From Rhizobiales bacterium 62-47 (GTDB lineage Bacteria > Pseudomonadota > Alphaproteobacteria > Rhizobiales > Xanthobacteraceae): 64,000 nucleotides of DNA. Location of the stretch: contig MKVX01000018.1 of NCBI GenBank assembly GCA_001899255.1, positions 1,117,150 to 1,181,149 on the forward strand, written 5' to 3'. The position numbers and the translations under genes are program-made. Numbering within the stretch: the first letter of the stretch is position 1; each line of letters starts with the position of its first letter. Of this stretch, positions 12,042-16,086 are shown in pieces. The notes beneath the pieces are model-generated. The model was not told where the DNA came from, searched no databases, and saw nothing but the letters and a program-made list of their open reading frames with translations.

Positions 12042-12206
12042 TCAGCGATTGGTGTGGGTGTAGGCCAGCGTGGCGGCGCATGCGCCGAATACCACGGTCC
12101 ACATCAGGCTGGCCTCCAGCGTCGCGCCCAATCCGTAACGCTGCAGTAAGAAAATGAATGCACTCGCCGCAGCGGTGTGCATCAGGATGTAACGCCAGTT
12201 TTTCAT
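12042..12206 (-). CDS. Small single-pass membrane protein inside the nuo operon
   Basis: 54 residues beginning MKNWRYILMHT, with hydrophobic stretches at about residues 12-22 and 33-48 and a polar YTHTNR tail. It lies between nuoE and nuoF on the same strand, so it is very likely co-transcribed. The start chosen (12206) has AAAGGA nine bases upstream. A longer form starts at the ATG at 12254, overlaps the nuoE TGA by four bases (ATGA), has an equally good GAAGGAG sequence upstream and adds a basic leader ([16 protein letters not shown]) to give 70 residues; I cannot decide between them. I do not recognise the family and assign no function. An accessory or assembly role for complex I is possible from position alone. 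Confidence 0.65.
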   Translation of the reverse strand: MKNWRYILMHTAAASAFIFLLQRYGLGATLEASLMWTVVFGACAATLAYTHTNR

Positions 12207-12250
12207 CGCCTCGATCCTTTCGGGTTTCGAGATTGCGATAGCGCGAGCCT

Positions 12251-12865
12251 TCATGATTGCGGCTCCTTCAACACGCGCGGGCCGCCCGCGGGCGCCGAGA
12301 ATTGCCGGTCGATCTGCGGGCCGGGTTTCGGCGGATTGTCCTTGGCGAAGCCGTCGAGCACCTTGCCGAACGACTCCTTGGTGAGATCCTCGTAAGTATC
12401 CTTCCAGATCATCACCATCGGGGCATTGACGCAGGCGCCGAGGCACTCGACCTCTTCCCACGAGAAGTTGCCGTCTTCCGAGACATGGAACGGATCGTGG
12501 TGGATGCGATGCTTGCAGACGTCGATCAGGTCGCCCGCGCCGCGCAGCATGCACGGCGTCGTGCCGCAGACCTGCACATGCGCTTTCTTGCCGACCGGGG
12601 AGAGCTGGAACATCGTGTAGAACGTCGCGATTTCCAGCACGCGGATGTAGGCCATGTCGAGCATGTCGGCGACGACGCGAATGGCCGCTTCCGACACCCA
12701 GCCGGCGTTCTGTTCCTGCGCCCGCCACAGGATGGCGATACACGCGGATGCCTGGCGGCCTTCGGGATACTTGGTGATCTGCTGCTTGGCCCAGGCGAGA
12801 TTCTCTTCGGTGAACGCGAAGCTCGCGGGCTGCAATTCCTTGGGTGCCAGACGACGAACGGACAT
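12251..12865 (-). CDS. nuoE: NADH-quinone oxidoreductase subunit E
   Basis: 204 residues. 24 kDa-type subunit with the 2Fe-2S cluster N1a; ligands are CGTTPC at about residues 100-105 and CLGAC at about 141-145. The N-terminal helical part ([17 protein letters not shown]) and the thioredoxin-like domain are intact, followed by a proline-rich tail of about 30 residues after KVLDGFAKD. It begins 11 bases after the stop of the FkbM-type methyltransferase gene, which is inserted between it and nuoD. Confidence 0.97.
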
Positions 12866-12876
12866 TGTGCGGTCTC

Positions 12877-13842
12877 TCAGTGAACGCGGCGCGAAGCGTT
12901 CGCGTTCATGCGGTGAAAGCGGTCTTCCCAGAACGCACTGGCGGTGCCGAACACGTTGTAGCCAACGTTCGACGCCACCTTGATGCGATCAAGGAGCGAA
13001 AGCTCGGTGAGAATTTCAAAACGATCGCTGACCGGATCGTGGGCGATCAGCTTCAGCGGCGTCTGTTCGAGGATGTAGCGCGAGACGGTATGGTGCGGGT
13101 CGTTGCCGTGCTCCTCGCACATGATGACGGCGTCGCCCTGCAACAGCCGTGCGCCGCCCTTGATCGCCTCGATCTCGACGCCCTCGACGTCGAGCTTGAT
13201 GAGATACTTGCCGTTCGCGGCGATGACGCCATCGTCGAGCAGATCGTCCAGCGCCAGGACCGGCACCACCTCGCCGTGGGCCGCCGTGCCGCCCGCGATG
13301 CTGAACGCTTCGTGCTTGGTGCCGGACAGCCGCGCCATGCCGCGCGTCGCGCCGATGGCGCAATGCATCACGTCGAAACGACCGGCGTTAATGTTGGCAT
13401 TGTTCGACAGCTTGGCGAAATTGAGCGACGACGGCTCGATGGCGATGGCCTTGCGCGACCCGAACGGGCGGCTCGACACAAGCACCGACCAGTAGCCGTA
13501 GTTGGCGCCACAATCGAGCAGTGTGTAGTCGATGTCCGCCGAGTCGCGGAACAGCAGTTCGAGTTCGTCTTCGTACTTGAAGCTGCGGTTGAGCAGCTTG
13601 CTCCAGTAGCCGTCGCCGTAGGGGAACGCGAACACCGCGTCGTCGTTCAGCTTGATGGCGATGTCGCGCTCCGGCAGCGTCTTGCGCAGCAGGTTGGCGC
13701 ACATGTTGTAGCCACGATGCGCGAACAGCGACGACACCTTCGAGCCCGCCAGCAGCGCGACCGCCGCCAAACGTTCCCAAGGGTTGGCCCCCTCGAGCAC
13801 GCCGGTGGTCCGGTCAAACTGGATGGGCGCTTGTGCGTTCAC
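12877..13842 (-). CDS. FkbM-family SAM-dependent methyltransferase inserted in nuo operon
   Basis: 321 residues. Class I methyltransferase fold: motif [16 protein letters not shown] at about residues 111-125, an acidic post-I residue in [12 protein letters not shown] at about 135-147, and the FkbM signature [18 protein letters not shown] near 215-233. FkbM-type enzymes usually O-methylate sugars or small molecules; the substrate here is unknown. The GTG start (13842) overlaps the nuoD stop by four bases (GTGA) and has GGAGAGG seven bases upstream; nuoE follows after 11 bases. The coupling argues for stable membership of the operon. Complex I assembly is known to use methyltransferases (NDUFAF5, NDUFAF7), but these belong to other families, so any such role is conjecture. 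Confidence 0.9.
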
Positions 13843-15038
13843 CGATCGACCTCTCCGAACACGATATCGAGCGATCCGAGGATCGCGGAGACGTCGGCCA
13901 GCAAATGACCCTTGCAGATAAAGTCCATCGCCTGCAGATGCGCGAAGCCCGGCGCGCGGATCTTGCACTTGTACGGCTTGTTGGTGCCGTCGGCGACGAG
14001 GAACACGCCGAACTCGCCCTTCGGCGCCTCGACCGCGGCGTAGACTTCGCCGGCCGGCACGTGGAAGCCTTCGGTGTAGAGCTTGAAGTGATGGATCAGC
14101 GCTTCCATCGAGCGCTTCATCTCGCCACGTCGCGGCGGGAAAATCTTGTTGTCTTCGATGGCAACCGCGCCCTGCCCGTCCGGTGCGCGCAGCTTGGCGA
14201 TGCACTGCTTCATGATGCGCACCGACTGCCGCATCTCTTCCATACGGATGCAATAGCGGTCGTAGCAATCGCCGTTCTTGCCGATCGGAATGTCGAAATC
14301 CATCTCGGCGTAGCATTCGTAAGGCTGCGACTTGCGCAGATCCCACATCGCGCCGGAGCCGCGCACCATGACGCCGGAGAAGCCCCACTCCCACGCCTGC
14401 TGCAGCGTTACCACGCCGATATCGACGTTGCGCTGCTTGAAGATGCGGTTGTCGGTCAGCAGCGTTTCGAGATCGTCGCAGACCTGCAGGAACGGATCGC
14501 ACCACGCCTCGATATCGTCGATCAGCTGCGGCGGCAGATCCTGATGCACGCCACCGACGCGGAAGAACGCCGCGTGCATGCGCGAGCCGGAAGCGCGCTC
14601 GTAGAACACCATCAGTTTTTCGCGCTCTTCGAAGCCCCACAGCGGCGGCGTCAGCGCGCCGACGTCCATCGCCTGCGTGGTGACGTTGAGCAGATGCGAC
14701 AGAATGCGACCGATCTCGCAATACAACACGCGGATCAGTTGACCGCGGCGCGGCACCGCAATGCCGAGCAGCTTCTCCGCCGCGAGACAGAACGCATGCT
14801 CCTGATTCATCGGCGCGACATAATCGAGCCGGTCGAAATAGGGAATCGCCTGCAGATAAGTCTTCTGCTCGATCAGTTTCTCGGTGCCACGATGCAGCAG
14901 GCCGATATGCGGATCGACGCGCTCGACGACTTCGCCGTCCAGTTCCAGCACCAGGCGCAACACGCCGTGCGCAGCCGGATGCTGCGGCCCGAAGTTGATG
15001 GTGAAGTTGCGCATACCCGGGGTTTCAGTTTCGCTCAC
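13839..15038 (-). CDS. nuoD: NADH-quinone oxidoreductase subunit D
   Basis: 399 residues. 49 kDa subunit forming the quinone site with NuoB and NuoH. Conserved [20 protein letters not shown] at about residues 11-30, HRGTEKLIE at about 48-56, and the C-terminal [13 protein letters not shown] are all present. The GTG start at 15038 overlaps the stop of the preceding thioesterase gene by four bases (GTGA). An ATG eight codons in (15014) would also give a full-length protein. Confidence 0.96.
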
Positions 15039-15466
15039 GCGGCTACCCCCGCTTTCGCCGCCTTACTGGCGACCCGTGCATTGAATTTATCCCACGCCAC
15101 AACGTGGCGCTGATGCGTGCCTTCGCCGATCATGTCGACGCCGTCATGCGCCTTGACGTTGAAATTCAGACGCTTGCCATCCACCTCGGCGCATTCGACC
15201 TCGACGGTGACGGTCAGTCCCGGCGGCGTCGCGGCGGCGTGGCTGACATTGATGTGCGTGCCGAGGCTGCCCTCGCCCGCGTCGAGATGATGCTTCATCA
15301 GATCGATGCAGGCCCACTCCATCAGACCGACCATATAACCGGTCGCGAATACGTCCGGCATGGCCTGGAAATCCGGCGCTTCCGGATAGAGGTGCGGCAC
15401 CGTCTTGTTGTCGGGCACCCGGTAGGTGAACCGGTGCGTCAGCCCTGCTTTGAGCGTCGGCTTCAT
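15035..15466 (-). CDS. FlK-like hotdog thioesterase inserted in nuo operon
   Basis: 143 residues, single hotdog domain. From memory it closely resembles FlK, the fluoroacetyl-CoA thioesterase of Streptomyces cattleya: shared blocks are [12 protein letters not shown] (residues 22-33), [15 protein letters not shown] (39-53), [20 protein letters not shown] (64-83) and [15 protein letters not shown]. The FlK catalytic residues Thr42, Glu50 and His76 fall at the same numbers here. The FlK lid residue Phe36 is Met36 here, so fluoroacetyl-CoA specificity should not be assumed; hydrolysis of some short acyl-CoA is the safer call. The ATG overlaps the nuoC stop (ATGA at 15463-15466) and its own stop overlaps the nuoD GTG, so it is translationally locked between nuoC and nuoD. 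Confidence 0.9.
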
Positions 15467-16086
15467 GACGGTTTGGCTCCGTCAGTGCTTTTCTTCTCGT
15501 CGCCTGGCAGCGGATAGTCCGCGCCTTCCCATGGCGACAGAAAATCGAAGCGGCGGAATTCCTGATTGAGTTTCACCGGCTCGTAGACCACTCGCTTCTC
15601 GGCGTCGTCGTAGCGCACCTCGACGAAACCGGTGGTCGGAAAATCCTTGCGCAGCGGATGGCCGTCGAACCCATAGTCGGTCAGCAGCCGCCGCATGTCG
15701 GGATGGCCGACGAAGATCACGCCGTAGAGATCATAAGTCTCGCGCTCGAACCAGTCGGCACCGGGAAACACGCCGATCAGCGACGGCACCTGCGTCATCT
15801 CGCCGGCGATCGCCTTGATGCGAATCCGCTCGTTCAGCGTCGGCGACAGGAAGTGGTAGACCAGATCGAAGCGCTGTTCGCGCGTCGGATAGTCCACCGC
15901 CGTGACGTCGGTGATGTTGACGAAGCGGCAGCGCGGATCGTCACGCAGGAAGCGCGCTGCTTCCACGATCTTGCCGACCTCCACCGTCACCGTGAGTTGA
16001 TTGAAGGCAACGGTGTAGCCGGTCGCGACGCCCGGCAGTGCGTCAACGATCATCTGACCCAGGGAGTCGAGCTTCGCGTCGTCCAT
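15463..16086 (-). CDS. nuoC: NADH-quinone oxidoreductase subunit C
   Basis: 207 residues. 30 kDa subunit of the peripheral arm. Diagnostic segment at about residues 118-150: [20 protein letters not shown] followed by [18 protein letters not shown]. The C-terminal extension ends in [11 protein letters not shown]. It is a separate gene, not fused to nuoD as in enterobacteria. It starts 9 bases after the nuoB stop and overlaps the FlK-like gene by four bases. Confidence 0.97.

Follow-up and report, generated by a model that had tools for sequence, protein, structure and literature searches.

Why should the operon for respiratory complex I carry the gene of a thioesterase? The question is raised by a 64,000-nucleotide stretch of DNA from Rhizobiales bacterium 62-47 (contig MKVX01000018.1; the whole stretch is referred to here as the window), in which a predicted FlK-type hotdog acyl-CoA thioesterase is encoded between the complex I genes nuoC and nuoD. 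The gene lies at 15035..15466 on the minus strand, begins with ATG and encodes 143 amino acids followed by a stop; an initial annotation of the window had described this open reading frame, without giving its strand, and the frame is real. The answer tentatively preferred here, on the grounds of sequence comparison, is that the product would be an FlK-type thioesterase with a small acyl-CoA as substrate and a housekeeping role, made together with the respiratory chain and acting outside complex I. No published account of a thioesterase in a nuo operon was found, in a search for which subscription literature was mostly out of reach.

The protein matches the Pfam FlK family PF22636 (E 1.1e-32; score 112.7 bits, cut-off 27), and no NCBIfam model matches it at E<=1. 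A phmmer search of the PDB aligned it with FlK of Streptomyces cattleya (3kv7, E 3.3e-49), residues 5-136 on residues 5-136, without a gap over the 132 residues, so that the two proteins have a common residue numbering; their identity is 58%. Thr42, Glu50 and His76, which we take to be the catalytic residues of FlK, coincide in both proteins, as do Gly69, Arg120, Val23, Leu26 and Phe33. The codons of the triad are found at 15341..15343 (Thr42), 15317..15319 (Glu50) and 15239..15241 (His76) of the minus strand, and the mutants of T42 among the solved FlK entries agree with a catalytic role of Thr42. An AlphaFold2 model of the window protein (pLDDT 97.5, with 39 sequences in the alignment) lies 0.8 A from FlK (3kx8_B) over 131 columns, which predicts a hotdog fold. 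The initial description of the protein as an FlK-like hotdog thioesterase therefore stands, and the triad that it placed at the FlK positions, while allowing that an alignment might show otherwise, is in register. T42, E50, H76, G69 and R120 are moreover invariant in all 60 nuo-linked proteins of the comparison, and the complete conservation of the triad argues for an enzyme. What sets the window protein apart from S. cattleya FlK (3kv7, 3kx8, 3p2q) is a methionine at position 36 in place of the lid phenylalanine, and a complex I operon in place of a fluorinase neighbourhood.

The gene is tightly fitted to both of its partners. The upstream nuoC (15463..16086, minus strand; PF00329, E 8e-45; NF004733) ends in an ATGA overlap with the thioesterase start at 15463..15466, and the TGA stop of the thioesterase overlaps the GTG start of the downstream nuoD (13839..15038, minus strand; PF00346, E 4.2e-120; NF004739, TIGR01962) in a GTGA at 15035..15038. 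Both overlaps, from which translational coupling had been proposed, can be read in the sequence, and the Pfam and NCBIfam matches confirm the neighbours. Among 59 nuo-linked loci, for which start codons were chosen by script, the thioesterase is always on the strand of the nuo genes; it overlaps nuoC in 32 and is no more than 30 nt away in 19 more (51 of 59 together), and it overlaps nuoD in 25, is within 30 nt in 14 more and farther away in 20. A scan for promoters and terminators around the junction gave nothing above chance, and a search of the whole window with Rfam at gathering scores returned three tRNAs and nothing else.

Genomes were sampled at the level of the family (149), the order (297) and the class (385). 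In the family, some FlK-type match at E<=1e-5 is present in 102 of the 149 genomes and a match at E 2.2e-52 or better in 28; each of the 28 strong copies lies after nuoC and, in 27 cases, before nuoD as well, the remaining one being at a contig end. A 29th carrier, G131 (genomes are numbered with G, loci with L), has a partial copy at a contig end, likewise after nuoC, and the second copy of G097, cut by a contig end and not counted separately, also precedes nuoD (L228). In the order, a match at E<=1e-40 was found in 30 of the 297 genomes, the window genome included, and in all 29 others it lies between nuoC and nuoD; these 29 belong to seven further families, which makes eight families in all. 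Named carriers include Methyloceanibacter (L034, L035) and a Hyphomicrobiales bacterium (L032). At the level of the class, 16 of the 385 genomes, again including that of the window, gave a match at E<=1e-30, and no nuo gene was seen in the fetched flanks (about 1.5 kb) of the 15 other matches; a separate contig scan gave 15 loci, 5 of them nuo-linked. In these samples the linkage to nuo is restricted to one order.

Within this range the gene is often absent. The junction was assessed in 137 of the 149 family genomes (five had no nuoD match, and seven, mostly cut or partial and including G076 and G131, were omitted): 27 hold the thioesterase, three of these together with a gene of the GFA type; five hold the GFA-type gene alone; the gap is no wider than 130 nt in 92 and wider in 12; and one is unreadable. 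No copy is thus present at the junction in 109 of the 136 readable genomes, nor in any of the six further genomes sampled from the genus to which the window belongs. The absence from all six genus relatives and from most family relatives argues against an obligatory role in complex I, which probably does not need the thioesterase. The FlK homologues that the initial annotation suggested looking for between nuoC and nuoD are therefore found across the order, and its alternative of a one-off insertion fails at the level of family and order, although the six genus relatives lack the gene at this junction; the description of the gene as locked in place holds across eight families but is too strong for the window's own genus.

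The history of the gene can be read in part from trees. In a tree of 91 homologues, from which the outlier L046 (34%) and the repeat copies L001, L033, L039, L066 and L119-L130 were omitted, the 60 nuo-linked proteins fall on one branch (support 64/93; 62% of 200 bootstrap trees), which fits a single old insertion weakly and does not prove it. Between the window and L003 (G106), silent divergence (Ks) is 1.00 for the thioesterase and 0.87 for nuoC, and this similarity fits common descent better than recent transfer. The ratio of amino acid-changing to silent divergence (Ka/Ks) over the 50 listed pairs ranges from 0.02 to 0.29 for the thioesterase and from 0.03 to 0.34 for NuoC. By these figures selection on the thioesterase is purifying, and the gene is retained for its product, somewhat less strictly than NuoC.

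The preferred reading, a housekeeping thioesterase co-made with the respiratory chain, can be set out as follows. The Thr42-Glu50-His76 machinery would hydrolyse a small acyl-CoA to the free acid and CoA. The gene would have entered the nuoC-nuoD junction probably once, before the families of the order diverged, and would since have passed down as part of the operon, with many losses. Translational coupling would cause the thioesterase to be made in step with complex I, and the enzyme may serve in clean-up, either by the release of CoA or by the removal of an unwanted thioester resembling acetyl-CoA, a service that would pay off while the respiratory chain is being synthesized. Downstream of nuoN in the window genome, on the same strand, lie birA and the genes for RNase J and methylmalonyl-CoA epimerase (TIGR03081); these genes give the nuo neighbourhood of this genome an acyl-CoA flavour.

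Several points weigh against this reading and keep it tentative. On a tree of NuoC and NuoD for the 137 family genomes, the presence of the gene requires 13 changes, or 30 losses if it was present at the root, a large number if the function were a core one. The branch that would reflect a single insertion is weakly supported, and some exchange between lineages is possible: the gene tree places G613 (L078) among other families, whereas a nuo tree of the loci (without L001, L009, L026, L033, L039 and L119-L130, and with four long versions in place of cut ones) places it inside the family of the window. Over the 1653 pairs of 58 loci (a table that omits L009, L026 and the repeats L001, L033, L039, L066 and L119-L130), mean identity is 60% for the thioesterase and 65% for NuoC; NuoC is the more conserved in most pairs, and the thioesterase equals or exceeds it in only 387. 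The acyl-pocket positions 26 and 33 vary among the nuo-linked copies (L26 in 47 of 60, F33 in 43 of 60), so that one common substrate is not assured. Many nuo junctions of the order, finally, hold other inserts, and the site may be merely permissive.

This last point leads to the alternative that survives best, namely that the position has no meaning: the nuo cluster would tolerate inserts, and an unrelated thioesterase would ride along in it for the sake of constitutive expression. Genes of the GFA type, of the 23S_rRNA_IVP type, for DUF3291, for an FkbM methyltransferase and for unknown proteins are found at the same and at other nuo junctions. In two families (L122, L125) nuoF and nuoG are separated by the DUF3291 gene, so that another insert may be old besides the thioesterase, and the thioesterase itself has repeatedly been absent or lost. 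Against this, no close copy outside nuo was found in the order sample, all 30 matches at E<=1e-40 (the window's included) being in it, and the gene is under purifying selection. A meaningless position is considered possible but somewhat unlikely.

A second alternative takes the kinship with FlK literally. The enzyme would hydrolyse fluoroacetyl-CoA or 2-haloacetyl-CoA and so block the entry of fluoroacetate, of plant or man-made origin, to the tricarboxylic acid cycle, with the nuo operon providing a constitutive supply. The identity to FlK speaks for this, together with the common residues V23, L26, F33, T42, E50, G69, H76 and R120. Position 36 (codon 15359..15361, minus strand) is Phe in S. 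cattleya FlK, where we take it to form the lid, and Met in the window protein, a replacement that the initial annotation had noted correctly. Its suggestion that the substrate may for that reason be a different acyl-CoA does not follow and is weak: Met36 is the norm, being present in 58 of 60 nuo-linked proteins and in 29 of 30 other homologues (87 of 90, the remaining three having Leu, Ile and Val), and it is also found in the homologue of the Delftia plasmid pUO1 (L062), which adjoins genes for a methyltransferase, an alpha/beta hydrolase and CrcB. The lid phenylalanine of the fluoroacetyl-CoA-specific FlK is lacking in the window protein, but it may not define the activity, as the pUO1 protein also has Met; Met36 is thus no argument against fluoroacetyl-CoA, and judged from these alignments it points neither away from that substrate nor towards it. 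The pUO1 hydrolase, an alpha/beta hydrolase according to its record, is presumably the haloacetate dehalogenase DehH1. The same type of cluster is reported for the fluoroacetate degrader Caballeronia S22 (PMC11812338), the homologue of which is taken here from that description.

The surroundings of the nuo-linked copies speak against such a detoxifying role. No match to the pUO1 methyltransferase, hydrolase or CrcB was obtained in the 75 nuo-linked loci, a set in which one genome can appear in repeat copies; the neighbours are nuo genes, and no linkage to fluorometabolite or fluoroacetate genes was seen, no search for a fluorinase having been made. The hydrolase-linked copies (L030, L062) stand on a separate branch of the tree. 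The spread over eight families would also be easier to understand for a common substrate than for a rare poison. Fluoroacetyl-CoA or another 2-haloacetyl-CoA is regarded as an unlikely natural substrate. An association of the carriers with a pUO1-like hydrolase was tried and dropped as not significant: the hydrolase is no commoner in carriers (25 of 28 carriers and 97 of 121 other genomes have it, p 0.41; G131 is left out of the 28 carriers here and in the ccr count below), and the matches are mostly loose homologues of about 40% identity. FlK is believed to guard Streptomyces against the fluoroacetate that the organism itself produces. It prefers fluoroacetyl-CoA to acetyl-CoA 10^6-fold, and in S. 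cattleya it is encoded with the fluorinase gene (PMC5485738).

Other FlK-type proteins provide further comparisons. Those of pUO1 (L062) and of the family genome G035 (L030) share PF22636, the triad and Met36 with the window protein, but have only 48-50% identity to it, belong to the other branch and adjoin a dehalogenase-like alpha/beta hydrolase. Proteins of Dongia and Paramagnetospirillum (L041, L043, L044) are closer, with 62-63% identity, the triad and Met36, but no nuo genes lie within their fetched flanks. The window genome has a second FlK-type protein (G000:C5; L132:7378-7776, minus strand), which also matches PF22636 but has 34% identity and adjoins genes for an indolepyruvate ferredoxin oxidoreductase-like protein (below the model cut-off) and a LigB-type dioxygenase. 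Among the neighbours of the non-nuo homologues, as called by a crude gene caller that set some frames wrongly, no common partner was noticed except a GNAT-type acetyltransferase gene, which lies directly beside FlK-type genes in two lineages (L036:4288-4986, L133:7893-8513).

A more ambitious version of the link between respiration and acyl-CoA metabolism is quite unlikely but can be stated. The substrate might be an acyl-CoA, or an acyl group bound to a carrier, which accumulates once NADH oxidation is held up or which is itself harmful to complex I, and its removal might be the reason why the enzyme is produced along with NuoC and NuoD. On this view the ordinary work of the lineage would be housekeeping without any bearing on fluorine, and S. 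cattleya FlK would have branched off from it. FlK is known as unusually fluorine-selective, and its close kin have probably been long resident in the complex I operon of eight families, which suggests that their natural function lies elsewhere than in fluorine chemistry. The many natural Met36 enzymes are available for asking how the selectivity of FlK arose, and the conserved place of the gene hints at a connection, so far unexplained, of respiration with the clean-up of acyl-CoA.

Service in the ethylmalonyl-CoA pathway, by hydrolysis of one of its CoA intermediates, is improbable. The pathway gene ccr (TIGR01751) is present in 24 of 28 family carriers against 53 of 121 others (p 5e-5; 24 of 29 if G131, with its partial copy and no ccr, is counted) and in all 29 other carriers of the order against 137 of 267 non-carriers, and the methylmalonyl-CoA epimerase gene lies downstream of nuo. 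However, among the nine independent pairs on the family tree that differ in the thioesterase gene, ccr on average differs in the same direction in 1.1 and in the opposite direction in 0.3, numbers too small for the test to become significant, and among the carriers the window genome, G106, G032 and G109 have no ccr. The association could come from shared ancestry alone and, unsupported by this low-power test, was dropped as evidence. Isocitrate lyase (TIGR01346) gave no match at E<=1e-100 in the 149 family genomes, a cut-off or model that may not suit, and no conclusion was drawn from it. Equally improbable is an accessory, assembly or regulatory factor of complex I, made between NuoC and NuoD to meet both as they fold and perhaps de-acylating a carrier or subunit, since, for all that carriers always show the same junction and strand and the window gene is coupled on both sides, the thioesterase is not present wherever related complex I is, complex I seems to work without it in the relatives that have no junction copy, and the fully conserved triad points to an enzyme.

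The other occupants of the nuo cluster, finally, are of some interest in themselves. A GFA-type gene, recognized by similarity to the protein of L005, shares the junction in 9 of the 59 loci. It is found at L120:3516-3968 (in the same genome as L005) and at L116:2046-2483, the two for which PF04828 was checked, and further such junction genes occur, with or without the thioesterase, in L004, L014, L071, L077, L080, L086, L093 and L094. In L080, L081 and L093 a protein of about 150 amino acids is encoded between nuoC and the thioesterase; its copy in L128 (the genome of L080) has no Pfam match above the cut-off. A genome without the thioesterase has a protein of the 23S rRNA-intervening-sequence type (PF05635) in the nuoC-nuoD gap (L102:2100-2429), and open reading frames similar to it lie in the gaps of L101 and L111, which likewise have no thioesterase, the Pfam family having been checked for L102 only. 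The DUF3291 (PF11695) gene between nuoF and nuoG lies at L122:10387-10890 (minus strand) and L125:7139-7711 (plus strand). The window itself has a small predicted protein between nuoE and nuoF (12042..12251, minus strand), with kin in L032, L033 and L104 and no family above the cut-off. Between nuoD and nuoE it has an FkbM-type methyltransferase gene (12877..13839, minus strand; PF05050, TIGR01444), which is found at the same place, without the thioesterase, in the family genomes of L099, L100, L103, L105-L110 and L112.
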